A stretch of 31,078 nt of DNA from a virus, in IMG/VR virus record IMGVR_UViG_3300027686_000020, positions 1-31,078 of that record; one strand, given 5' to 3'. Position numbers and translations under genes: made by a program. Positions 11,864 through 29,329 of this stretch are shown here, in pieces (the stretch's first letter is position 1; the number at the start of each line of letters is the position of its first letter). The notes under the pieces were generated by a model, which was not told the origin of the DNA, ran no database searches, and saw only the letters and a list, made by a program, of their open reading frames with translations.

Positions 11864-14800
11864 ATGGCCGATAAATATACTAACTCGTTAAACCTGCCCG
11901 ACCTAGAAACCTATGGCCAAACACCAGAGCCATCTCAACAAACGGGACAAGACTACGTTCAAGACATTAACGTAGTTTCCCAGCTAAAAGACCCCCGCTT
12001 CATAGAAGACCTTCGCTCTTATTACCAAGAAAGTGGGCAACGCACTCGTTATCTCTCTAATGATGAGATGATTGACAAGTTCTTTAGCGATCAAACGTGG
12101 GAACTTCTCAATACTGGCTCAGCCGTGATGGGTGCTATCGAAGCACAGCAAGCTGGCGCAGAACAAAAAACTCGGATGAACCGCATCCAACAAGTCTACA
12201 ACAGGCTTCCCAACTTCTATCAAGAAGGTGGTCGAAGCACGTGGGAAATGCTCAAAGATGCTGTCCCGGCTGTCATAACAGACCCCCTTAATCTCGTCCC
12301 TGTCGCAAAAGGTTTTGCTTCTGCTGGTACAGCCGCACGTCTGGCTGCAACTCAGGGCAAGAACGCCATGTACGCTGGCATCAAGCAAGGTGCTAAGACT
12401 GGTGCTCTTACAGAGGCTGCAATTAGTGGTGCTCAGGAAGGCATCATCAATGTGGCTGGTCAGTCTAGGGATGTTTCCCTTGGCCTTCGTGACGAATTTT
12501 CTCAAACAGAAGCATTGGGCGCGACAGCTTTTGGAGCAGGTGCTGGTGCTCTTACTGGTGGTATTTTAGGTGCTGGTGCTGGTGCATTCGGTGCGCGTAA
12601 CGCTAATCCTAACGTCTCAGCCCTGCGTGAGCTGGGCGTTGATGACGGAACTATCGGTCAGCTAACAAATGACCAAGCTAAGCAACTTCTTGCAGACCCA
12701 GAGGGTACACGCGCTCAGTTTGCTGAAAACCCAGACGTCCTTACAGACGTAGAAGCAGCACCGATAGACCCTGTCGAAGCTGCGTTCAATGAGAAGTACG
12801 GCGAGTCAGCCGTTAAGTTGAATCTTGTGAAGAAGGAAGCTGAAGATAGCGTTGTACGCGCTATGAAGGATGGCGTTCCTGAGAGCGAAATCAACGACCT
12901 TCGTAAGTTTAGAGATACGGTAAATGTACTTGATGGCATGAAGTCTCGCATCATGAACGAAGAGGAAGAGATACGCGCTCTTTCTCAGACGGCGGATCAA
13001 GGTCAGCTCAAGGAAAACAGGGCGCGGATAGTTCAGTTCAACCGTGCTCAAGAGCAATTCAGGGTTCTTATAGAAACCATAGATGCTGATGCAGACCCAG
13101 ACATTATCTCTGCTCAGGTTGAAGACCTGCGTAAAATACTTGGCTTCTCTCCAGACGTAGAAGACGTCGCAGCGGAAGCAGAAAGTTTAGCCGCAACCGC
13201 TGGCGAAGTAGCAGTGGGCGAAGTTGCCGAAGAAGTAGATTTGGAACCCTCCGCTGGGGCCGGAGCTGGAACTGAAGTTCCTGAAGTTGTCGATGGTGGC
13301 CCTCCCCCTCCCGACGACAGCCCCACAACTGAGTTCACTTACAGTACAGCCAAGGTTAAAGGTGAAATACAGGATATTCTTGCTGAGAACTCTGTTGATG
13401 GAGACATGCTTGATGAGTGGATAAGCGCGGGGGCTATCGAGGCTCCTGAAGGCAAGATGAACGCTAAGTCTAAGCGTCAGCTATCCAAGCAAATTGAGAC
13501 GATGAAGTCTGAGGATGCCCAAGAGATTAAGCCATCGGCTGATACTGAAGAGTATCTGCAATCACCTAACACAGCACTACCAGAAGTTCGTGGCTGGGCT
13601 TTGTCTGAGGGAGTTGATTACAGGAACATCAAAGGCGATGCTCGTGCAAAAGACGGTAGGCTAACCAATGGCGCAGTCCGCAGGAATATCGCGGGTCGCA
13701 AAGGTGGAATTGAAGATGCTTATGCAATCAAAGCTAGGGAAGAACTAGACGAAATACTTGGTATAGCAGCGGCTGGCAATGCTACTGATGTCGATGCTCG
13801 CAACATGGTGGAGATGCTTTCTGCTGGTTATCAGACGAACAAAGACGACTTGTTAGCTTTGTTTGATTACACCAACAATAAGGCTGATACGTCTGAATCT
13901 TCCATGTCGATGCGTCTGACAAAGACGGAAGAGAAGTTCCTAAAGAAAAGACAGCGCGAGCTGAAAAAAGAATACCCTGATGCTTCAGATAATACTCTCG
14001 AAGCTATGGCTAACCTCGAACTCGTCAACAGACGTGGTCAAGGAGATCAAACTCCTGTGCGTGGTACAGGTGAGGCTATAGAGGATGCGTCTAAGTTTAC
14101 CACTGCTGGCCGAAATACTGCTGGCCGAATACAGGGGCAGCTACGTCGAGGCACACGTATATCAAAGGGATCGGACTACACTGTTACTGGAGGTAACAGA
14201 GTAACACCGTCAACATTTGGCTTTGAAGCCGCTCTTGCCGAAGCAACAACTCCGCCATCATCTCCACTGAAAGGCAAAGCGTTAGAAGAAGCGCAACGTC
14301 GTACAGATAAGATGATTGCAAACGGCATGGACGCTGAGCGAGCACGTAAGATCAATGGTCTTGATCGTGCAGAACGTGGCTCAGCTCCGGGTATTGTTGA
14401 ATACACAACAGCAAGAGGTGAAGTCGTAAACACTGCCAATGGCCGTCAGGTCATGAGGGGTGGTGAAGTTGCTTATGTAGACGCAGTAACAAAGCGTTCT
14501 TACGAGAGCATAGATTTCCTTTTACAGAACAGAGATGGAGTATCAAGCAAGGCCGTAATCAAGCAGACGGTAGAAACACCTGACGCTGCTGATGTCGTAG
14601 AGGCTCCAGAAGCTCCGTCAAAGCCAGTATCGCGTAGCTTTGAAGAGAACATGGGCGACCTGATTGCTGAGCTTAGCGATGATCCTGTGGCTCTTAGAGA
14701 AGCCTTGGTCGCACGAGCCGAAGAACTCGCTGATACTGTGGCTAACTCTAGCAAGAAGAAAGCAACAGCAACTCCGGGCAAGAAGGGCGATATGCTTATC

Positions 14801-17800
14801 GTTGTCCGCGAGAAGTCTGACCCATCAAACATCCGCATGATGTCTAAGAAGCAAGCGGATATGGGAGCGACGGCTGCTGATGTTATTGGTACGCGCAAGC
14901 CAGACCCTGCTGACTGGGATATTCGCTACGCACCATCAACCACACCACGTGGCAAGACTTCTTTAACTGAGATATTTGATACGCTACCCGCAAATCCAGA
15001 CTTGGATGGGGCATCAGGCTCAATCGTAACTGATGGCCAAGCGTCAGCGCACATATCATTAAGCCCAGAAGACGCAGCTAAGACGCATTGGGAGGCTTCT
15101 CCACGAGAGCGTAAGATAATGGTGCTCTTAAAGAAGGGCGACAAAGAAAAGTACACAGTCTCTGAGCTTTGGCTGGGCCTTAGAGCGGCAGAAAGCATGA
15201 CTTGGAGAAAGACATCTCAAGGACACGAAGCCTTGGGCGAAGCAATCGCATTGCTCCAAGCAAAGTTTTCCGAGATTGCGCCTAATGGTATCCGTGTTGG
15301 AGAAGAAGCAAGGGCAAAAGCTGTTAGTAATGTTCGTGAACTTTTTTCCAAGTATGCGCCAGATGAGGTTGATCTTGCGATTAAGTTTATACGAGGTCTT
15401 GGTGGCGACACTGCGATTGGCCCTGCAATTAAGGCTCGATCTGATGGTGGCAACCCGATGGTTACCTCTACGATTGCAAACGCTAGGACACCAGAGCAGG
15501 ACGTACTGTTAAACTTTGGCAAGTACGACGAAATACCTAATATATCTAAGCTATATCATGAGGTCGCACACTGGGCCTATGAACATATTCTTACGCCTAA
15601 AGACCGTGCTGAGTTCTGGAATGTTGCTAAAGAAGCATACTCTCCCGGTGGCAAACAGACGTATCAAAAGAATAAACTGTCCAAGTACGCACAGGTCAAC
15701 GAAGACATCACTGCTGGTCGGCCCAAGGAAACCGAGTTTAACTTCTACGAAAGCCCTCAAGAGTTCTTTGCATGGCAATTCGACCTATGGGCATCACGCA
15801 AAAAGTCTGGTGACCTAGTCCAAAACGAAGTCTTCTGGCGCAAGGTTGCCCGTTATGTAGAGAACATCTTTAACAGGTACGCTAACGACGCCGAGATACA
15901 TCCAGACTTAGAGCCATTGTTCTCCAAGATACTGCCAGATTCAGAACGTGCTGGCATTATGATGGGTCGTGATGCGACGCCAAGCACCCCTAATGCCGAG
16001 CATATAAATGCTCGATTCATGGGTATTGAGCGAGCCGAGGCTGACATCGAGGATGCAATACTCCGCGATAGCCCCGAAGGTATCATCGAAGCACACCGTG
16101 TTCTCGTGAGCGAAGTCTTATTATCAATGGCTCCGAAGCGGGGAACCGAAGCTCGACCAAACACAGGAGTGTATGGCCCTGTGGCGGCTGGTGGTCAGGG
16201 GTTCCAAAAGGGCAACCTTAATATCATCCGCCAACGCATACAAAACATTGATGAAATTGTCACTGGCAAGCCATTTAAATATGAAGGTCTTGGTCAAGAC
16301 TTGGTTGGTTATAAGCCAGCTTGGTTGGAAGAAGGCATGACGGTAATGGATGATCCACTACCGATTGCTGATGCACTGAGAGACTTTTACCTGAAAGGTT
16401 TTGCGTCTGACAACCCGGCTATCAACGACTTAACTCGACCCGGAGGAATGAAAAACCTCAATGCGTCGTCAGTTAAGTCAATGATTAGCTTCGTCAAACG
16501 GAGTCTTGAAACAGCCTACAGAAATTCAGAAGGTGGCAGTCCTCCGTCTGGCATAAAGATTAAAGCGGACGGTGAAAACCCTGTGCGATCCAAGGCCAGC
16601 ACTAAAGCTAGGGGAACCAAGAAGCAGAATGTTCGTGCTAAAAACGCCCTAACTAGAGAAGCCACGATTGTAGCAAAAACACCCGCTAACAAGCGGCCTA
16701 GAGCTAAGCAAAAAGGCAACTTGGACGCGACAAGTGCGCCAGAGATTAAGACATCACAACTGCTTGATCTACATAAAATGTATGTGGATCATCGTGGGTC
16801 TGAACGTGGTGACCAGATAGCGATAGAAATCGTAACCAAAACTAAAGCTCAGCCTCTACCCGCCGAGAAGGTCGGCGTGTCTCGTGAAGTCTTGAACTCA
16901 AGAGAACCTGACATTCGAGATCAATTAATGGATGCTCTATATGAAGGGGACAGCGATAGAATTAGTGAGCTGACCTACGAGCTGCAACGGAGAGCAACTA
17001 ACAAAGGTCTGAAGAAACAGGGTCTTGCTACAATCGACGCGACTGTAGTTAACAAGGCTGTTCAGCGCGAAGTAAATGACAACATGGGTGTCCCATCTAA
17101 TGATGGTATCCCCGCGTCTTCACGAGCAGCGGTAAGGGAGATGCTAAGTTTCATCACTCATCGTGATCCTGAAGCACAGCAAACAGCCAGAACCATGACC
17201 TACCGTATGGTTAACCTGATGGGTAAAACTGTTAAGGGTGATCTAGCTGATACCAACGTCTTGTCTTCTAAAGATTTGGTAAGACTTGCCGGGGGTGATC
17301 CAGACAAAGCACCATCAGCGTCTTACGCAGACTTGAGAAGCCCTGAATTTAAGAAGCTACGAAGTGATGTGCGTCGTTTATCTATTGGCCTTACTAAAGG
17401 TAACACTTCGCCCTTCGATGTTGTCCACGAGATAGGTCATATGATCGTAAGATCAGATGTCTTAGATAGTGTTGAGATGGATGCTATTCGAGAAGCATAT
17501 TCAGCTTCAAGTGACACAGTAAAGAACCGTGTAATAGCTGCATATGGCAACAAGTATAACGACTTCACTAACAAGAACGACGCTCTAGTAAAAGAGTGGT
17601 TCTCTGAGAAGCTGGCAGAGTATATGGCCGAGCGTGTTACTAGAGGTGACATACTTGAAGCTATGGCAACTGGCGATATTGCTAAGCTGAAGATGCGCAA
17701 CTCTTTTGACCGTGCTTTAGATAAGATGATCGAGTATGTTTCATACGTTGTGAATGGTTTAGTCGGACGAGATGACATCAAGCAGCAGTTCCGTCGTATG

Positions 17801-20800
17801 TTCTTGTATGGTGATATGTTTGAGCGGCCATCTAAGTCGCCACTAGCAGACGTGACTAAGCAACGAGCAGCACTTCATCCAAGTATTGCAGCGTCTGCAA
17901 CATTCGATAGCTTCTCATCCTCACCCAGACCACGAATGGCTAAGATAAAAGACTTCGTAGGCAATGGCATAAGCAATGGTGGTAATGATCGTGTCATCCC
18001 GTTCTACCATGGCACACCGAATGGCTATGCTTTCAAAAAAGGTGATAGCCCAGACGTAATCTTACGACCAAGTGTTCGTGGATTTTATGGGCCGGGAGTT
18101 TATTTAGCGAACAGCCCAACGGTTGCAAGCGAAGTCTTCTCACGTAAACCAACCCCGGAGTCTATGCGATCTCAGATTATGGAGATGGCGAACATAAGCG
18201 ATGAGGTTAAGGAAGAACTTATCTTCGACTCAATAGACCTTCACGAAGTTCGTAAGTCTATATCCAAGTATCGTCGAAAGTATTACATGGCTCAAGCGTC
18301 AGACATGGACGCAGAAAACTTGGGTGCGCTAAGAGAAATACTTGATGACTTAGTAGAGATGGAAGAGTCTTATCTCACTAACCTGACAGAAGCTGGCATC
18401 AAGAGCGATCCTCTTGTCCTACCAACCTATGTGCGCGTTAAGAACCCTGTCGATTTCCAACGTGGAACCGTCTATCACGGCGGAGCAGACCCACTTATTC
18501 AGTCGGTTCTCAGACATGCTGAGATGACAGAGACAACAAATCAAAAAGCAATTAACTCTTTGTTAGCAGACTTCAATGAAGGTGGATTGGATGGGCCGGA
18601 GGCTTATCAAGCTCTCTTATCTTTCTACCGTCAAAGTGGTCGCAACAAACTTCAGGCACAGAATGAGCTGAATGAAACGCTCGAAGACTTGGGCCATGAT
18701 GGAATACTCACAACGCATGACAACACTGTAAATATTGATGGCACAGATAGAATGGCTAACACTGAAACCTATGAAGGCTCCAGCATAAGTTACCAAGGTG
18801 TTGTTGTATTCGATCCCGCTAACGTGAAGCACGTCGAGGCAGATGATTTCGATGCTACTGATTCATCTTTGTACCATCGTGAACCCGCACCAATTAGCCG
18901 GGGAGATGCTGGCGATCTATTTACCGAGATAGCTCTCAATGAAAATATTGACTCTGTTAAGGACGTAGACGCAGGTATGTTTGGCGAAATGCTAGAAGGC
19001 ACTGGCGTTGATCCATCAACGTCGGGCGCAGTTATGTCAATGATGCGTGGAAGAACACTTAGCCCCAAAGAAAATAAAGCATTGGAGCGGGGTAGTTCAA
19101 AAGGTTTCTTACTAAGCCAGTCAGACCGATTGAATAATGTCGGAATGACTTGGCTGGGTGACTGGTATAAGAACTTCTGGCCAGATCAATCTCAAGCATT
19201 CGCGCAGAAATACATGCCTATTGAGGGAATGCTCAAGGCATTACCTGATGCTGATGGCACACTCATGCGCTGGATGAAGGATAACAATCCAACAAATACA
19301 GCCGCAAGGTTCCAGCCGCAGTCGTATAAGAAAATTGTTAAAGCATTACGGCATGGCGAGACGTCACGGCCCTATAAAAATCTTGCCCCAGAGGAGCAGA
19401 AAGTTGCTCAAGCCATACGTGCAGCCTTCCGAAAGGAACTGACAGACCTGCGTAAAGCAGGAGTTATGATCGGTGATCGTGGCCCTAACTACATGCCTCA
19501 CGTTTGGAGCAAGGACAAGATAGTAGCAAACCAAAGCGAGTTTAAAGAGGCTATGGCTTATTACTATAAGTTAGAGAAGACTGCGATGGGAGCTGACATT
19601 CCTACGAATGCAGAGGTCAATGACTTCGCAGAGGATATGTTCCTTAGACTTGGTACTGATGAAGAAACGGGTCAGATGCAGCCATCTATGGGTGGGTCTA
19701 AGAACCCTACCAGCGACCATGTTGATTACAGTCGTATGATTGAGCTGGAGAAATACCCTGCGGCTATGCAAGCACTCGAAGGTTTCTTGGAAGATGATCT
19801 TAGATTCTTGCTGATTAAATATTTTGAAGGAACGACTCGACGTCTGACATATATGGAGAAGCTGGGTCAAAACTCACATGCTTACACAGATTACATGACT
19901 GTTCTTGAAAAGGGTCGGGAAGGTATTGCTAAACTTCTGTCTACCAATAGAGAGTTTGTGGTCAATAGAAGCACCATGGGAACAACTGGCCCAACAGAGT
20001 ATCAACTAAGCTCAACGGCCTTCATGCCTTTCGAGGGAGACATAGGGGCAGGTACAGAGTTCGCTGACCAGTTAGTAAGGATGTATGAGCAGAAAGGATT
20101 TGCTGCGGCAAAAGAACTGCTGGCTCGTAAAGCCCCTATTGGCTCAGACGGTATGCCCAGTTTAGCGTACTCAAGGCGAGCAGACGCAATCATGGGTGCT
20201 CTACAAGACTTCGGCGGACAGAAGGCCAGACTTGAAAACGAAGACGTGAGCTTTGCAAACGACGCAATGGCTCTCGTCATGAGAAAGCCTACATCAAACT
20301 CTGGCACTGAACAGGCACGAAGCATTTCTAAAGTAATGAGGACTGCTCAGAACCTTACGCTGTTAGGATTTACTACGCTCAGTTCATTGGGTGATCCGGC
20401 TCTACCTCTTATACGAAGCGGGTCAATGAAGTCTTGGGCGAAAGGTTTATTCCAACTGGCGTCTGATCCTGAGTATAAGAAAGCCATTCATGATATCGGC
20501 ACTTCCATGGAAAACATTATCCATGAGCGCATGATCTACATGTATGGCTCGCCTGATAATAAGATGTCTCAAGCGTTCTTTAACTTTACAGGTCTAACTG
20601 GATGGACGAATGTGCAGCGGCAGCTAGCTGGCAGTGTTGGCTTCAACAGCTTCAAGGCGAATCAAACAAAAGCATCCAAGCACTTCGATCCTAGTCGGCC
20701 TGTGAGTCAGCAGAACACGCAGTACAGGACTGCCCATAGATACCTAACTCGTTACGGTATGGCTGACTTCTTGCCTAATGGAACAAGGGGCAAGCAATCC

Positions 20801-21583
20801 TTGGACAACGAACTTCTAACTGACAGAACTGTTAGAACTGCGGTGCTTAGGTTTACGGATGAGACTATATTCCAGCCCAATCCTAACGATATGCCTATGG
20901 CTACAAACAACCCGTGGATGGCTATGTTATTCCAGCTAAAGTCTTTCCCACTAATGATGCAACGTCTGTCTGGTTATGTTGTTGAGGAGGCGAAGCAAGG
21001 TAACTTTAAGCCAGCCATGTATATGGCAACAGTTGGGCCGGGAATGGGTGCTGTAGCATTGTCCGCAAAAGACGTGGTTCAGTTCCGGGGCGGCGAAGAC
21101 TCCAATGAGTCAGAGGTTCGCGTCAGAAACATAGGTCAGTTAGCTGAAATGCTGGGCGGAGATGCCAAGACTTATGGTGACGGCAGTGATTTTGTTGGCT
21201 GGTACTTCGAGGGCTTACTACAAATGGGTGGCCTTGGTTTGCTGGCAGACATACTTCACAGCACTGTACAGCAAGTCGATAACGGTGCTTACGGTGCGAC
21301 AAGAATAGCCAGCACAATCATGGGGCCAAGTTTCGGCATGGTGTTTGGTGATGGCCTGAATGTTCTAGGTGGCGCGTATGACATGGCCCTTGGCAACGAT
21401 GACAGTAACGCTAAGGAAAGGTCAGGTGCTAGATCGCTTGCAAGTCGTATCCCCATTATTGGCGGAATACGAGGAGCACGTGAGGGTATCGTAGACACGG
21501 TTGCTGGAGAACAGACCAAGCGTAAGAGTAAGTTTGGTGGTGGAATTGGTGGTGGAATTGGAAAAGGAATTGGTGGTTCATGA
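11864..21583 (+). CDS. Giant polyvalent virion protein: two zincin motifs and ADP-ribosyltransferase-like domain
   Basis: This 3239-residue protein fits the 'polyvalent protein' class: large phage proteins carrying several effector domains, packed in the capsid and delivered into the host. A Gly/Ala-rich hydrophobic stretch (about 155-245) may be membrane-active. An acidic Pro-rich linker follows near 455-490. The first metallopeptidase motif is HEVAH at 1232-1236, with possible third ligand E1296 or E1300. The second is HEIGH at 1855-1859, with candidates E1911, E1915 or E1919. An ADP-ribosyltransferase-like domain spans about 2045-2330, with FYHGTP (H2049), YGPGVYLA (Y2080) and VVVFDPANVKHVE near its end. 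The C-terminal third has helical hydrophobic segments (about 3112-3133) and ends in a Gly/Ile/Lys-rich tail. No phage RNA polymerase motif was found. It overlaps the next gene by ATGA. Confidence 0.85.
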   Translation: MADKYTNSLNLPDLETYGQTPEPSQQTGQDYVQDINVVSQLKDPRFIEDLRSYYQESGQRTRYLSNDEMIDKFFSDQTWELLNTGSAVMGAIEAQQAGAEQKTRMNRIQQVYNRLPNFYQEGGRSTWEMLKDAVPAVITDPLNLVPVAKGFASAGTAARLAATQGKNAMYAGIKQGAKTGALTEAAISGAQEGIINVAGQSRDVSLGLRDEFSQTEALGATAFGAGAGALTGGILGAGAGAFGARNANPNVSALRELGVDDGTIGQLTNDQAKQLLADPEGTRAQFAENPDVLTDVEAAPIDPVEAAFNEKYGESAVKLNLVKKEAEDSVVRAMKDGVPESEINDLRKFRDTVNVLDGMKSRIMNEEEEIRALSQTADQGQLKENRARIVQFNRAQEQFRVLIETIDADADPDIISAQVEDLRKILGFSPDVEDVAAEAESLAATAGEVAVGEVAEEVDLEPSAGAGAGTEVPEVVDGGPPPPDDSPTTEFTYSTAKVKGEIQDILAENSVDGDMLDEWISAGAIEAPEGKMNAKSKRQLSKQIETMKSEDAQEIKPSADTEEYLQSPNTALPEVRGWALSEGVDYRNIKGDARAKDGRLTNGAVRRNIAGRKGGIEDAYAIKAREELDEILGIAAAGNATDVDARNMVEMLSAGYQTNKDDLLALFDYTNNKADTSESSMSMRLTKTEEKFLKKRQRELKKEYPDASDNTLEAMANLELVNRRGQGDQTPVRGTGEAIEDASKFTTAGRNTAGRIQGQLRRGTRISKGSDYTVTGGNRVTPSTFGFEAALAEATTPPSSPLKGKALEEAQRRTDKMIANGMDAERARKINGLDRAERGSAPGIVEYTTARGEVVNTANGRQVMRGGEVAYVDAVTKRSYESIDFLLQNRDGVSSKAVIKQTVETPDAADVVEAPEAPSKPVSRSFEENMGDLIAELSDDPVALREALVARAEELADTVANSSKKKATATPGKKGDMLIVVREKSDPSNIRMMSKKQADMGATAADVIGTRKPDPADWDIRYAPSTTPRGKTSLTEIFDTLPANPDLDGASGSIVTDGQASAHISLSPEDAAKTHWEASPRERKIMVLLKKGDKEKYTVSELWLGLRAAESMTWRKTSQGHEALGEAIALLQAKFSEIAPNGIRVGEEARAKAVSNVRELFSKYAPDEVDLAIKFIRGLGGDTAIGPAIKARSDGGNPMVTSTIANARTPEQDVLLNFGKYDEIPNISKLYHEVAHWAYEHILTPKDRAEFWNVAKEAYSPGGKQTYQKNKLSKYAQVNEDITAGRPKETEFNFYESPQEFFAWQFDLWASRKKSGDLVQNEVFWRKVARYVENIFNRYANDAEIHPDLEPLFSKILPDSERAGIMMGRDATPSTPNAEHINARFMGIERAEADIEDAILRDSPEGIIEAHRVLVSEVLLSMAPKRGTEARPNTGVYGPVAAGGQGFQKGNLNIIRQRIQNIDEIVTGKPFKYEGLGQDLVGYKPAWLEEGMTVMDDPLPIADALRDFYLKGFASDNPAINDLTRPGGMKNLNASSVKSMISFVKRSLETAYRNSEGGSPPSGIKIKADGENPVRSKASTKARGTKKQNVRAKNALTREATIVAKTPANKRPRAKQKGNLDATSAPEIKTSQLLDLHKMYVDHRGSERGDQIAIEIVTKTKAQPLPAEKVGVSREVLNSREPDIRDQLMDALYEGDSDRISELTYELQRRATNKGLKKQGLATIDATVVNKAVQREVNDNMGVPSNDGIPASSRAAVREMLSFITHRDPEAQQTARTMTYRMVNLMGKTVKGDLADTNVLSSKDLVRLAGGDPDKAPSASYADLRSPEFKKLRSDVRRLSIGLTKGNTSPFDVVHEIGHMIVRSDVLDSVEMDAIREAYSASSDTVKNRVIAAYGNKYNDFTNKNDALVKEWFSEKLAEYMAERVTRGDILEAMATGDIAKLKMRNSFDRALDKMIEYVSYVVNGLVGRDDIKQQFRRMFLYGDMFERPSKSPLADVTKQRAALHPSIAASATFDSFSSSPRPRMAKIKDFVGNGISNGGNDRVIPFYHGTPNGYAFKKGDSPDVILRPSVRGFYGPGVYLANSPTVASEVFSRKPTPESMRSQIMEMANISDEVKEELIFDSIDLHEVRKSISKYRRKYYMAQASDMDAENLGALREILDDLVEMEESYLTNLTEAGIKSDPLVLPTYVRVKNPVDFQRGTVYHGGADPLIQSVLRHAEMTETTNQKAINSLLADFNEGGLDGPEAYQALLSFYRQSGRNKLQAQNELNETLEDLGHDGILTTHDNTVNIDGTDRMANTETYEGSSISYQGVVVFDPANVKHVEADDFDATDSSLYHREPAPISRGDAGDLFTEIALNENIDSVKDVDAGMFGEMLEGTGVDPSTSGAVMSMMRGRTLSPKENKALERGSSKGFLLSQSDRLNNVGMTWLGDWYKNFWPDQSQAFAQKYMPIEGMLKALPDADGTLMRWMKDNNPTNTAARFQPQSYKKIVKALRHGETSRPYKNLAPEEQKVAQAIRAAFRKELTDLRKAGVMIGDRGPNYMPHVWSKDKIVANQSEFKEAMAYYYKLEKTAMGADIPTNAEVNDFAEDMFLRLGTDEETGQMQPSMGGSKNPTSDHVDYSRMIELEKYPAAMQALEGFLEDDLRFLLIKYFEGTTRRLTYMEKLGQNSHAYTDYMTVLEKGREGIAKLLSTNREFVVNRSTMGTTGPTEYQLSSTAFMPFEGDIGAGTEFADQLVRMYEQKGFAAAKELLARKAPIGSDGMPSLAYSRRADAIMGALQDFGGQKARLENEDVSFANDAMALVMRKPTSNSGTEQARSISKVMRTAQNLTLLGFTTLSSLGDPALPLIRSGSMKSWAKGLFQLASDPEYKKAIHDIGTSMENIIHERMIYMYGSPDNKMSQAFFNFTGLTGWTNVQRQLAGSVGFNSFKANQTKASKHFDPSRPVSQQNTQYRTAHRYLTRYGMADFLPNGTRGKQSLDNELLTDRTVRTAVLRFTDETIFQPNPNDMPMATNNPWMAMLFQLKSFPLMMQRLSGYVVEEAKQGNFKPAMYMATVGPGMGAVALSAKDVVQFRGGEDSNESEVRVRNIGQLAEMLGGDAKTYGDGSDFVGWYFEGLLQMGGLGLLADILHSTVQQVDNGAYGATRIASTIMGPSFGMVFGDGLNVLGGAYDMALGNDDSNAKERSGARSLASRIPIIGGIRGAREGIVDTVAGEQTKRKSKFGGGIGGGIGKGIGGS

Positions 21584-26437: not shown

Positions 26438-26677
26438 GTGAAGATTAGGCTGAACATAGAAGCCCTCATCCGCGACTGCGGTGGTGCATCAATGACCGCG
26501 AAGATCGCAGGTGTTGTAAGAACCGCCCCATATTCGTGGGTCAAGAGACGCTATATATCCAGCCGCGTACTTGAGCGGATCAAAGAAGCTCGACCAGATT
26601 TAGACATTAACATTTACTTTGACGATGAGGATTACAATGAAAACGAAACTGGAAGCGGCACAGGAGTATCTGGATAG
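26438..26677 (+). CDS. Cro-like helix-turn-helix protein
   Basis: This 79-residue protein has a compact helix-turn-helix at about 8-50 (CGGASMTAKIAGV, then TAPYSWVKRRYISSRVLERI), in the manner of Cro-type repressors. The turn and the tryptophan in the recognition-helix region fit phage Cro proteins. A Gly/Ser/acidic tail follows. The start is GTG 26438 with AGGAG six bases upstream. It is the first gene of the rightward transcript. It lies beside operator-like repeats, so it probably controls both divergent promoters. No partner CI-type repressor or integrase is visible in the window. Confidence 0.72.
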   Translation: MKIRLNIEALIRDCGGASMTAKIAGVVRTAPYSWVKRRYISSRVLERIKEARPDLDINIYFDDEDYNENETGSGTGVSG

Positions 26678-28553
26678 GGGTTGGTCTATCATACCAATCC
26701 GGCCAGAGGGTAAGAGACCTGCTATTAAATGGAGAGAGTATCAAGACCGACAGCCTACCTATGAGGAGGTTGAGCAATGGTGGACGCAATGGCCTGACCA
26801 CGACATAGCAATCATTACTGGTGCTATATCAGGGGTGGTTGTGGTTGATTGTGATAATGAGGACGCTGCTCATGCAGCATTCGATGCAAACATGCGGTCA
26901 CCTATCAAGGTAAAGACCAAGCGTGGCATACATCTGTATTTCGAGAACCCCAAAGATGATGTAAGACGTGGCCCTAGAGCTGGAGTAAATAGCCGGGGAG
27001 CTGATTGGCCACAGATAAATGGGTTAGACTTCAGAGGTGATGGTAGCTACGCGCTACTACCTCCCTCAAACAATTACGTCTGGGATTATCCGCAGCACGT
27101 ATTCGATTGGGACGAAATGCCCACGTGGGAGGACTGGAAGCCTAGTCTTGCGCCTGTTCGGACGGAGGGTGACTTTCACTTTGGTGATCTTGACCTGTCC
27201 GCAGTCACTCCATTCAGCCCAGATGATCTTATGTGTGAGTGGGATAGGACGGCAGCATACGTGAAGGCAACATTCCCTACCTCACTAAAGATACCGAGCG
27301 GTCTTGGTAATGGGCGCAATGAGCGGGTGATGCAATACATATCTGAGTCTGTTAGGGAAGGGTACTTCGGTGCTGAGTTGCGTGTCAGGGGCTTTGCTTT
27401 CATGCGTGAGTTCTTCGAGGACAGGCTTGATGATAGGGAGTTCGAGGCAACTGTTCTATCAATGGAACAAGCCGAGAGAAGGAACCATCCCGACAGGTTC
27501 AACGATGAAGGTGACTATGTTCACAAACCTTTTGTCAAGGAAGGTAAAGACGAGGAGCCGAGGAAGCGTAAGCTAATTTTGATGGAGGATGCTGAGCAAC
27601 TTTTACAGGAGTCAGATGCTAAAAGTTACTTGATCGAACCATGGCTACCAGCTAATACAATAGTGCAGGTCTACGGTTATTCAGGCCATGGTAAATCCCT
27701 CTTTGTGCAACATGCAATGTCAGCCCTATGCGCTGGCAGAAAATACTTTGGGCCGTTTGAAATCGGTAGACCTGCACGAGTTTTATATCTCGACTTCGAG
27801 ATGGGTATGGCCACGATTGCCAGACGTCTGATCGAGATGCGTCAGGTTCATGGCAACACAGAAGATCGCCTCAACATATGGACACCGTTCGTTGACAAGA
27901 AAGAGATGGACTTAAACCATAGGGAAGGGCTGATAGAGCTACAGAACTGGGTTAAGTTTGCCAACCCAGACGTCATCGTAATTGACACGATCCGATCTGC
28001 CTACCCCGGACTTGGTGAAAACTCAGCAGACGAATGGGCTAAGATCAACAAGCTGGCCGTGCATTTGCGGAACAGTGGGCTGTCAGTCATCATGCTACAC
28101 CACTCGAACAAGCCATCGCTGGATGGTGTGGGAAGAGAGGCAGGTAGTACAAACCAGCTTACAGTTCTTGAGACACAGATAAGAGTAGCCCAAGTCTACA
28201 AGGACGAGGACACTGCCAAGCAGAATGCGGCTATATACGACGGGACTTATGAGACCCCCATCTGGCCACAGCTTGAAGCTAAGCTACCGCCCAACCACCG
28301 CTTGTACATGGTTATGGAAATTCGTTACGGGAAGGTGCGTGAATGGACAGACATACATGACAGGGTTCAATGGCTTGGCTTGGCTGCTCACAATGATACA
28401 GATGAAAAGATAATTGTATCAAGCAGATCAACGAAGCAGAAAGCTAAAGACATGGCACTTGATGGGTTCGACTCGACAGTTATTGCTGATCGTCTTGCGC
28501 GTCCGCTACGTCTGATACGGGACTGGCTGGAGATTGATCTCCCTTCATCGTGA
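26637..28553 (+). CDS. Prim-Pol primase fused to RecA-like helicase
   Basis: This 638-residue replication protein has an N-terminal bifunctional primase-polymerase (Prim-Pol) domain at about 5-165. Its catalytic residues are D71-x-D73 in VVVVDCDNED, H99 in KRGIHLYF and D131 in GLDFRGDGS. A linker leads to a RecA-type ATPase/helicase at about 330-560, with P-loop GYSGHGKS (347-354), Walker B VIVID (446-450) and an LHHSNKP motif near 488. It should unwind and prime the phage DNA. I chose ATG 26637 because GAGG (26627-26630) lies six bases upstream; TTG 26619 and ATG 26625 are alternatives. It overlaps the Cro-like gene by 41 bases, so it is coupled to it. Confidence 0.87.
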   Translation: MKTKLEAAQEYLDRGWSIIPIRPEGKRPAIKWREYQDRQPTYEEVEQWWTQWPDHDIAIITGAISGVVVVDCDNEDAAHAAFDANMRSPIKVKTKRGIHLYFENPKDDVRRGPRAGVNSRGADWPQINGLDFRGDGSYALLPPSNNYVWDYPQHVFDWDEMPTWEDWKPSLAPVRTEGDFHFGDLDLSAVTPFSPDDLMCEWDRTAAYVKATFPTSLKIPSGLGNGRNERVMQYISESVREGYFGAELRVRGFAFMREFFEDRLDDREFEATVLSMEQAERRNHPDRFNDEGDYVHKPFVKEGKDEEPRKRKLILMEDAEQLLQESDAKSYLIEPWLPANTIVQVYGYSGHGKSLFVQHAMSALCAGRKYFGPFEIGRPARVLYLDFEMGMATIARRLIEMRQVHGNTEDRLNIWTPFVDKKEMDLNHREGLIELQNWVKFANPDVIVIDTIRSAYPGLGENSADEWAKINKLAVHLRNSGLSVIMLHHSNKPSLDGVGREAGSTNQLTVLETQIRVAQVYKDEDTAKQNAAIYDGTYETPIWPQLEAKLPPNHRLYMVMEIRYGKVREWTDIHDRVQWLGLAAHNDTDEKIIVSSRSTKQKAKDMALDGFDSTVIADRLARPLRLIRDWLEIDLPSS

Positions 28554-28776
28554 TGCTTGTAACGTAAGCTCCCGGAAAATGTTTGCGGACTTCGTCATAG
28601 AACGCTGCAAATTCTGGGAACTTACGTCTGTTCTCCGCTCTCTTCTGTTCAATTTCTATGTCCCATTGATTAGCTGTCAATGACTGGGGGTAAACCTTCT
28701 GGGGAGAAGCCTTAACGTCTCGCTTACTTTTCCATTCGTCATATAGCTTTTGTTTTTCACGAGTGGCTTTATTCAA
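28480..28776 (-). CDS. 98-residue protein of unknown function, TTG start
   Basis: This protein has a highly charged helical body (TREKQKLYDEWKSKRD; EQKRAENRRKFPEFAAFYDE) and a Ser/Ala/Asp/Gln tail. The start is TTG (complement of 28774-28776), preceded on its strand by TTGAGG five bases away, a clear ribosome binding site. The last 74 bases run antisense through the end of the Prim-Pol gene. Leftward promoter-like boxes at 28922-28950 and a structured leader candidate (28801-28914) lie upstream. Family not recognised. The real-gene call rests on the ribosome binding site, composition and promoter context. Confidence 0.55.
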   Translation of the reverse strand: MNKATREKQKLYDEWKSKRDVKASPQKVYPQSLTANQWDIEIEQKRAENRRKFPEFAAFYDEVRKHFPGAYVTSITMKGDQSPASPVSDVADAQDDQQ

Positions 28777-28800: not shown

Positions 28801-28914
28801 CGATACACTCGCTAAGTGCTAGTAGACTAGCTGTTCTAAAGCATCGGTCTCTCGAAGGGGTGCGCAAGCGACCCCTTCGTCGTCCTCCCGCATCCGAACA
28901 AGGCGAGTGTATCG
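28801..28914 (-). ncRNA. Candidate structured RNA / leader
   Basis: A perfect 12-bp inverted repeat closes the region: CGATACACTCGC (28801-28812) and GCGAGTGTATCG (28903-28914). Inside lie two further hairpins. One is GCTAGT/ACTAGC (28818-28831). The other is CGAAGGGGT/ACCCCTTCG (28853-28879), capped by a GCAA tetraloop at 28864-28867. The predicted leftward start site, near 28915, falls at the outer edge of this repeat. Together this looks like a folded three-stem RNA leader of the 98-residue gene, or a separate RNA or DNA cruciform such as a replication site. No known riboswitch was recognised and no tRNA fits. Confidence 0.4.
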
Positions 28915-28921
28915 CTATTTG

Positions 28922-28950
28922 CTTATCTAATCAACCCCCTTCGTTGTAAA
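28922..28950 (-). promoter_or_regulatory. Leftward promoter candidate for the 98-residue gene
   Basis: On the - strand TTTACA (28950-28945) and GATAAG (28927-28922) are 17 bases apart. Transcription would begin near 28915, right at the outer arm of the structured region. Confidence 0.35.
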
Positions 28951-28966
28951 AATCACTCTTTAGGTG

Positions 28967-28995
28967 TTGATATTTTGCTCTGTATTCCGTAGAGT
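28967..28995 (+). promoter_or_regulatory. Rightward promoter for the nuclease/oxygenase genes
   Basis: TTGATA (28967-28972) and TAGAGT (28990-28995) are 17 bases apart, a good sigma-70-like match. It would serve the genes from 29036 onwards. It is arranged back to back with the leftward candidate at 28922-28950. Confidence 0.48.
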
Positions 28996-29035: not shown

Positions 29036-29329
29036 ATGCCGAAGATTGTTCGTGTCAGTGACACGGATTTGACTTGGCTCCGTGGATCACATCACATTCA
29101 CTCTTACCATTACCTCGCGCAACATATCGGTTGTTGCGTAGACACACTTAAAAGAATCCTAGTCCGTGAAGGACTACAGGAATTTGACGGTGCTAAGTAT
29201 CAAGTCCGCCGTGACTTTGAAGAGAAGACGTGGGTGCGCCCATGTATGTCATGCGGGGGTAACGAGAAGAGACCAAAGAATTGGTTCTTCTGTAAGCCAT
29301 GCCGCAAAACTATGGGGTATGACGATTGA
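29036..29329 (+). CDS. Helix-turn-helix / zinc-ribbon protein
   Basis: This 97-residue protein has an N-terminal helix-turn-helix-like segment at about 24-46 (YHYLAQHIGCCVDTLKRIL). Its C-terminal zinc ribbon has C70-x2-C73-x12-C86-x2-C89. Both parts suggest DNA or RNA binding, for example a transcription regulator of the early genes. A GGAG site precedes ATG 29036. Its stop overlaps a TTG start of the next gene (TTGA at 29326-29329), suggesting coupling. The specific target is unknown. The module order HTH then ribbon is seen in small phage regulators, but the family is not recognised. Confidence 0.65.
   Translation: MPKIVRVSDTDLTWLRGSHHIHSYHYLAQHIGCCVDTLKRILVREGLQEFDGAKYQVRRDFEEKTWVRPCMSCGGNEKRPKNWFFCKPCRKTMGYDD

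Follow-up and report, generated by a model that had tools for sequence, protein, structure and literature searches.

The inverted repeat and inner hairpins found in a 31-kb virus record (the window, the whole stretch of 31,078 nucleotides analyzed here) are real and, as judged from sequence comparison, conserved across a family of marine phages of the CRP-810 type. In the window, the element sits between a primase-polymerase gene (26619–28553) and a rightward gene (29036–29329). Its right arm appears from its sequence to be the -10 box of a sigma70-type promoter read leftward, which we call P_L. Comparison of relatives shows that this predicted -10 pairs exactly with a segment about 60–105 nt into the transcript of the same promoter, where a conserved small gene begins; the pairing encloses a long hairpin, P2, and in most cases a second, short one, P3. 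The exact mirror and the joint change of the arms point to an unrecognized fold-back switch that would control the small gene. Our best explanation, held tentatively, is that the element is a cis-acting leader of the CRP-810 family in which P_L supplies one strand of the fold, forming a lock on the small gene of the kind found in RNA from phage T4 gene e.

Layout of the element and its surroundings

The features of the element (28801–28995) and the gene that follows it leftward are:

28801–28812, minus strand: left arm, the exact reverse complement of the P_L -10 region, at about +88 to +99 of the P_L transcript
28818–28831, minus strand: P3, a short hairpin ahead of the left arm
28853–28879, minus strand: P2, a long inner hairpin and the first in the P_L transcript
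28899, minus strand: predicted +1 of P_L (G), placed by spacing, inside the repeat
28903–28914, minus strand: right arm, which is the extended -10 region of P_L, about -15 to -4
28906–28911, minus strand: P_L -10 hexamer TACACT, entirely within the right arm
28929–28934, minus strand: P_L -35 box TTGATT
28932–28946, minus strand: dyad CAACGAAGGGGGTTG, overlapping the P_L -35, a possible operator by its pattern
28967–28995, plus strand: P_R, a divergent rightward promoter-like site, TTGATA-17-TAGAGT, by consensus match
28480–28776, minus strand: small leftward gene of 98 amino acids, with a TTG start 24 nt past the left arm

The perfect 12-bp inverted repeat and the two inner hairpins described in the first-pass annotation were confirmed at the positions listed. 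The GCAA tetraloop that it pointed out is present on the plus strand, but only the window's clade has it, and the strand whose folding is conserved is probably the minus one. A rightward promoter had been proposed as well. The consensus match at P_R bears this out for the window, although, in a simple scan, only 42 of 60 elements had rightward promoter-like sites upstream. Operator-like dyads near the P_L -35 were detected by a simple pattern in 14 of 60 elements.

The proposed start of a leftward transcript at the outer edge of the repeat had to be given up. Given that the P_L -10 lies within the right arm, the RNA should start just inside that arm (about 28899) and lack it. A small RNA beginning at the outer edge was rejected on the same grounds, since the conserved promoter places the expected start inside the repeat. 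The annotation's suggestion of a structured leader or riboregulator is thus sustained in part: covariation, the promoter and a constant position ahead of a conserved small gene support a leader-like element, but a free-standing small RNA is unsupported, as the expected P_L RNA would lack one arm and continue into a coding frame.

The first gene past P_R (29036–29329, plus strand) encodes a 97-residue protein with, by eye, a possible helix-turn-helix and a CxxC-type C-terminus. It had no Pfam or PHROG match and is a candidate regulator of the divergent promoters. Ahead of the primase gene, 26438–26677 (plus strand) encodes a small protein with a weak, sub-cut-off match to YdaS (PF15943, E 0.0083). 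The window also holds a 3239-codon open reading frame at 11864–21583 (plus strand).

Promoter, arms and inner hairpins in relatives

Roseobacter phage CRP-810 is the annotated phage closest to the window, matching 57% of a 5-kb query at 72.8% identity. The main text of its report (PMC11288001) assigns it to a new marine family and states that it is able to integrate into its host. Five viral-contig scans with primase queries and one genome-contig scan, together with the window record and the CRP-810 record, provided 255 loci, of which 250 contain the primase end; these comprise 88 distinct primase-downstream regions. A script was set to locate the promoter together with the segment best matching the reverse complement of its -10 region; with no more than 3 of 12 positions allowed to be unpaired, 72 of the 88 regions scored as having the element. 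Reading by hand added L236 and L246 (weak candidates that had been set aside), L096 and L186, bringing the count to 76. Among the 12 regions without the element, eight are too short (L009, L017, L024, L031, L038, L043, L076, L077), L048 and L049 have another gene preceding the small gene, and the L188 contig ends first. The last, L111, is a Poseidonocella prophage whose examined stretch lacks the small gene. Primase was detected at the threshold used in 1 of 385 genomes of the class, that of Poseidonocella, and two genome-contig scans returned only this locus.

Every element read has a TTGAC-like -35, a spacer of 16–18 nt and a TAnAAn-like -10 inside the right arm. The spacer is 17 nt long in 64 of the 72 script-found elements, and the -35 reads TTGAC, TTGAT or TTTAC in 53 of 60. 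TA occupies -12/-11 in all 31 distinct arm pairs of the script set, and the -10 hexamer of the hand-read L186 has C as its first base. At the expected start, 45 of 63 elements have G.

Positions -12 to -5 of P_L are paired perfectly with the left arm (272 of 272 cells across 34 distinct arm pairs), with no wobble and no mismatch. The six most variable core positions are paired in 204 of 204 cells, compared with a mean of 91.9 and a maximum of 119 in 2000 shuffles, and one of the variable positions takes all four bases and is still matched exactly. The promoter arm carries G or T in 97 core cells, none of which is a wobble pair. These cells are not independent, the sequences being related, and the fairer figure comes from a tree built on 74 of the 76 primases (a stop codon in the frame used removed the other two), on which parsimony placed 50 pair-type changes in the core; none of the extant sequences shows an intermediate state. 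When 42 of the 63 distinct elements were aligned with MAFFT and counted separately, the covariation was 0.789 versus 0.184 for shuffled alignments (0 of 500 shuffles reached 0.789) and 0.045–0.097 for slid controls. In this count 97.8% of cells were paired, 10 of 11 pairs had both-sided changes, and one-sided changes were absent from the eight core pairs. Beyond the core, positions -15 to -13 and -4 do include unpaired and wobble cells. The absence of wobble in the arms (P1) stands because the search accepted arms with up to three non-pairs. By these measures, pairing is stricter in the arms than anywhere else in the element. The first-pass annotation had let its reading stand or fall with conserved pairing in relatives; the arms covary, and the finding survived.

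Mirrored arms could also be two opposite copies of the binding site of one protein, with a repressor looping the DNA between them. Possible operator dyads lie nearby, and 7–10 nt past the left arm, at a constant spacing, there is a TACA-like motif, with A at one place in 55 of 63 elements. Paired binding sites, however, drift at tolerant positions, whereas here all the variable core cells match, and we consider this reading unlikely. The position of the TACA-like motif is independent of the location of the start codon. A TGTA-N10-TACA dyad at the left arm is weak (164 of 240 cells versus a shuffled mean of 151 and maximum of 163), and the same dyad at P_R is not general among relatives. An invertible switch, in which a recombinase flips the segment between the arms, would fit inverted sites identical over 8 bp, as an exchange region requires. 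We give it hardly any credence: the orientation of the leader is constant across the relatives inspected, and the integration site given for CRP-810 in the main text of PMC11288001 is a tRNA-Thr gene. Two further candidates were rejected: a second, plus-strand promoter in the left arm, for which no -35 was seen in the sequences inspected by eye, and RNA-guided self-targeting, for which the flanking motif was inconsistent by eye and no such gene is annotated in CRP-810.

P2 is a compound hairpin, with one internal mismatch in most elements, and P3 is usually present. Both are kept in place and vary in sequence while pairing is retained, which is what would be expected of an ordinary leader in which P2 and P3 alone do the work, by stabilizing the RNA or by binding a protein or ligand, and the matching arms count for little. 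That the arms are more strictly paired than anything else in the element makes such a leader improbable.

Folding of the inner region gave a median z of -3.2 on both strands, and the minus strand was the more stable in 48 of 60 elements. The share of G-U pairs was 7.1% on the minus strand versus 3.7% on the plus strand (about 14% and 12% after shuffling). The predicted stability and G-U share lean toward an RNA on the minus strand. By one and the same method, there were 3.5 G-T mismatches per 1000 Watson-Crick pairs in P2/P3, 5 in SRP RNA and 11 in TPP RNA. The near absence of wobble from P2/P3 was therefore rejected as proof of DNA structure, since the control RNAs are similarly poor in G-T mismatches. 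The folding G-U shares of the controls are rough, as not all of their loci are in the orientation of the RNA strand.

The small leftward gene and its possible control

The small-gene family occurs in 83 of the 88 regions and follows the element in 72 of the 72 script-found cases; the 3' end of the gene overlaps the primase gene on the opposite strand. The protein has the core NRxKYPEIAxxVDEVRxxFPxAKVxSI. It had no Pfam match and one weak PHROG match (E 0.031). Comparison with the PDB yielded only short matches to unrelated enzymes, of at most about 40 residues (best E 0.0003, for a 24-residue stretch of quinolinate synthase), and the structure model is helical, with a pTM of 0.34. The CRP-810 record lists no CDS at 14020–14818, though the element and the frame of a small-gene homologue are there.

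Fifty-three elements have a start codon beyond the left arm; the first such codon lies at a distance of 2–26 nt in 42 of them and of 35–451 nt in the other 11. In 7 of 60 elements (L070, L072, L078, L080, L090, L092, L094) the frame opens ahead of the arm, and there is no start codon past it. In these seven the left arm is coding, with an ATG about 28–31 nt before its end, and the core is still exactly paired. A Shine-Dalgarno-like motif was detected ahead of 2 of 53 small-gene starts, and the left arm itself is not Shine-Dalgarno-like. In L048 and L049, AGGAGG directly precedes the small gene, and the intervening gene is perhaps a DNA methyltransferase, by eye. In L059, the element and the small gene are separated by a 138-residue frame that looks thermonuclease-like by eye.

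In the RNA lock that we tentatively prefer, RNA from P_L would start inside the right arm without that strand, leaving the start region of the small gene open. A putative longer leftward RNA from upstream would carry both arms, so that the stem would close and the start region would be locked. Only firing of P_L itself would then yield the small-gene product, much as happens with gene e, soc and I-TevI of T4. The covariation of the arms, a -10 inside one of them, a conserved small gene next in line and start codons mostly near the arm count for this proposal. So do the stem predicted in longer RNAs (at least 7 of 8 core arm pairs form in 54 of 60 cases), the minus-strand bias of the inner fold, the T4 precedent and the scarcity of Shine-Dalgarno-like motifs, unlike the AGGAGG of L048 and L049. 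Several observations count against it. The left arm is predicted to be only half open in the P_L transcript (median unpaired probability 0.47) and does not resemble a Shine-Dalgarno sequence; the start codon is not always near the arm, being far from it in 11 of 53 elements and lacking after it in 7 of 60; neighboring genes on the upstream side run the opposite way; and the core is wobble-free despite about 50 inferred changes, which is stricter than an RNA stem needs.

Given this zero wobble and the varying position of the start codon, a fold-back at the DNA level, possibly at an origin, is a serious rival, although we judge it rather doubtful. It holds that transcription from P_L, or replication, exposes the minus (non-template) strand, which would fold into P1-P2-P3 with the -10 held in a hairpin. 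Either re-firing of P_L would be blocked, or an R-loop would be kept open next to the primase gene and serve as a replication start. The -10 would have to match its downstream copy base for base since the displaced strand or an RNA:DNA hybrid folds back, and the promoter might be self-limiting or a replication start, which we think possible but somewhat improbable. Exact Watson-Crick pairing of the arms fits this proposal, as does pairing that begins at -15 or -12 and spans the stretch melted by RNA polymerase. Pairing is also retained where the left arm is coding, and the primase gene is adjacent, the loci having been retrieved via that gene. A fold in the displaced DNA strand explains the strictness of pairing, yet it leaves the strand bias unexplained: the inner hairpins are richer in G-U on the minus than on the plus strand, as in RNA. 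Moreover, the seeming lack of wobble in P2/P3 recurs in the control RNAs, and cumulative skew in CRP-810 and in the window has no clear switch at the element.

Known systems and what the element may mean

The closest known logic is the promoter-encoded inhibitory RNA structure of T4 gene e, and we tentatively favor the RNA lock as the mechanism of the element. According to the part of PMC3014915 that deals with these genes, longer early transcripts of gene e form an inhibitory structure whose 5' strand is encoded by the late promoters, and in I-TevI the 5' strand is late-promoter-proximal. As with the hairpins of gene e, soc, 49 and I-TevI, so far as that part of the source describes them, the promoter of the gene here would encode the 5' strand of a start-closing structure in longer RNAs. 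Unlike in T4, the arms are 62–95 nt apart with hairpins between them, the paired strand is not Shine-Dalgarno-like, and the position of the start codon varies. The promoter also differs in being of sigma70 type rather than T4 late: the T4 late motif TATAAATA was not found at P_L, which has TTGAC-17-TAnAAn boxes instead.

The put RNA leaders of phage HK022 are structured RNAs at the start of a leftward phage transcript, a trait shared with this element. We know of no description of put with an arm complementary to the promoter, unlike what is seen here. In Frpo, the single-stranded DNA promoter of plasmid F, the -10 is held in a one-strand foldback, as proposed here for the DNA-level alternative; unlike in Frpo, the -35 box of P_L lies outside the stem.

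Rfam at the gathering score gave 0 matches in the window and nothing relevant over nine relatives, where one weak match lay elsewhere in L015 (E 0.41). Literature searches, which covered little of the subscription literature, found no description of the element, and the words "intergenic" and "promoter" do not occur in the main text of the CRP-810 paper (PMC11288001).

For a widespread group of marine phages, many of which are temperate, the element offers a testable rule that holds for the whole family: the promoter -10 mirrors the leader. It ties a small gene that is unannotated in CRP-810 to a promoter beside replication genes. Either it would extend a form of control known from T4 to unrelated phages, or it would reveal control at the level of DNA.
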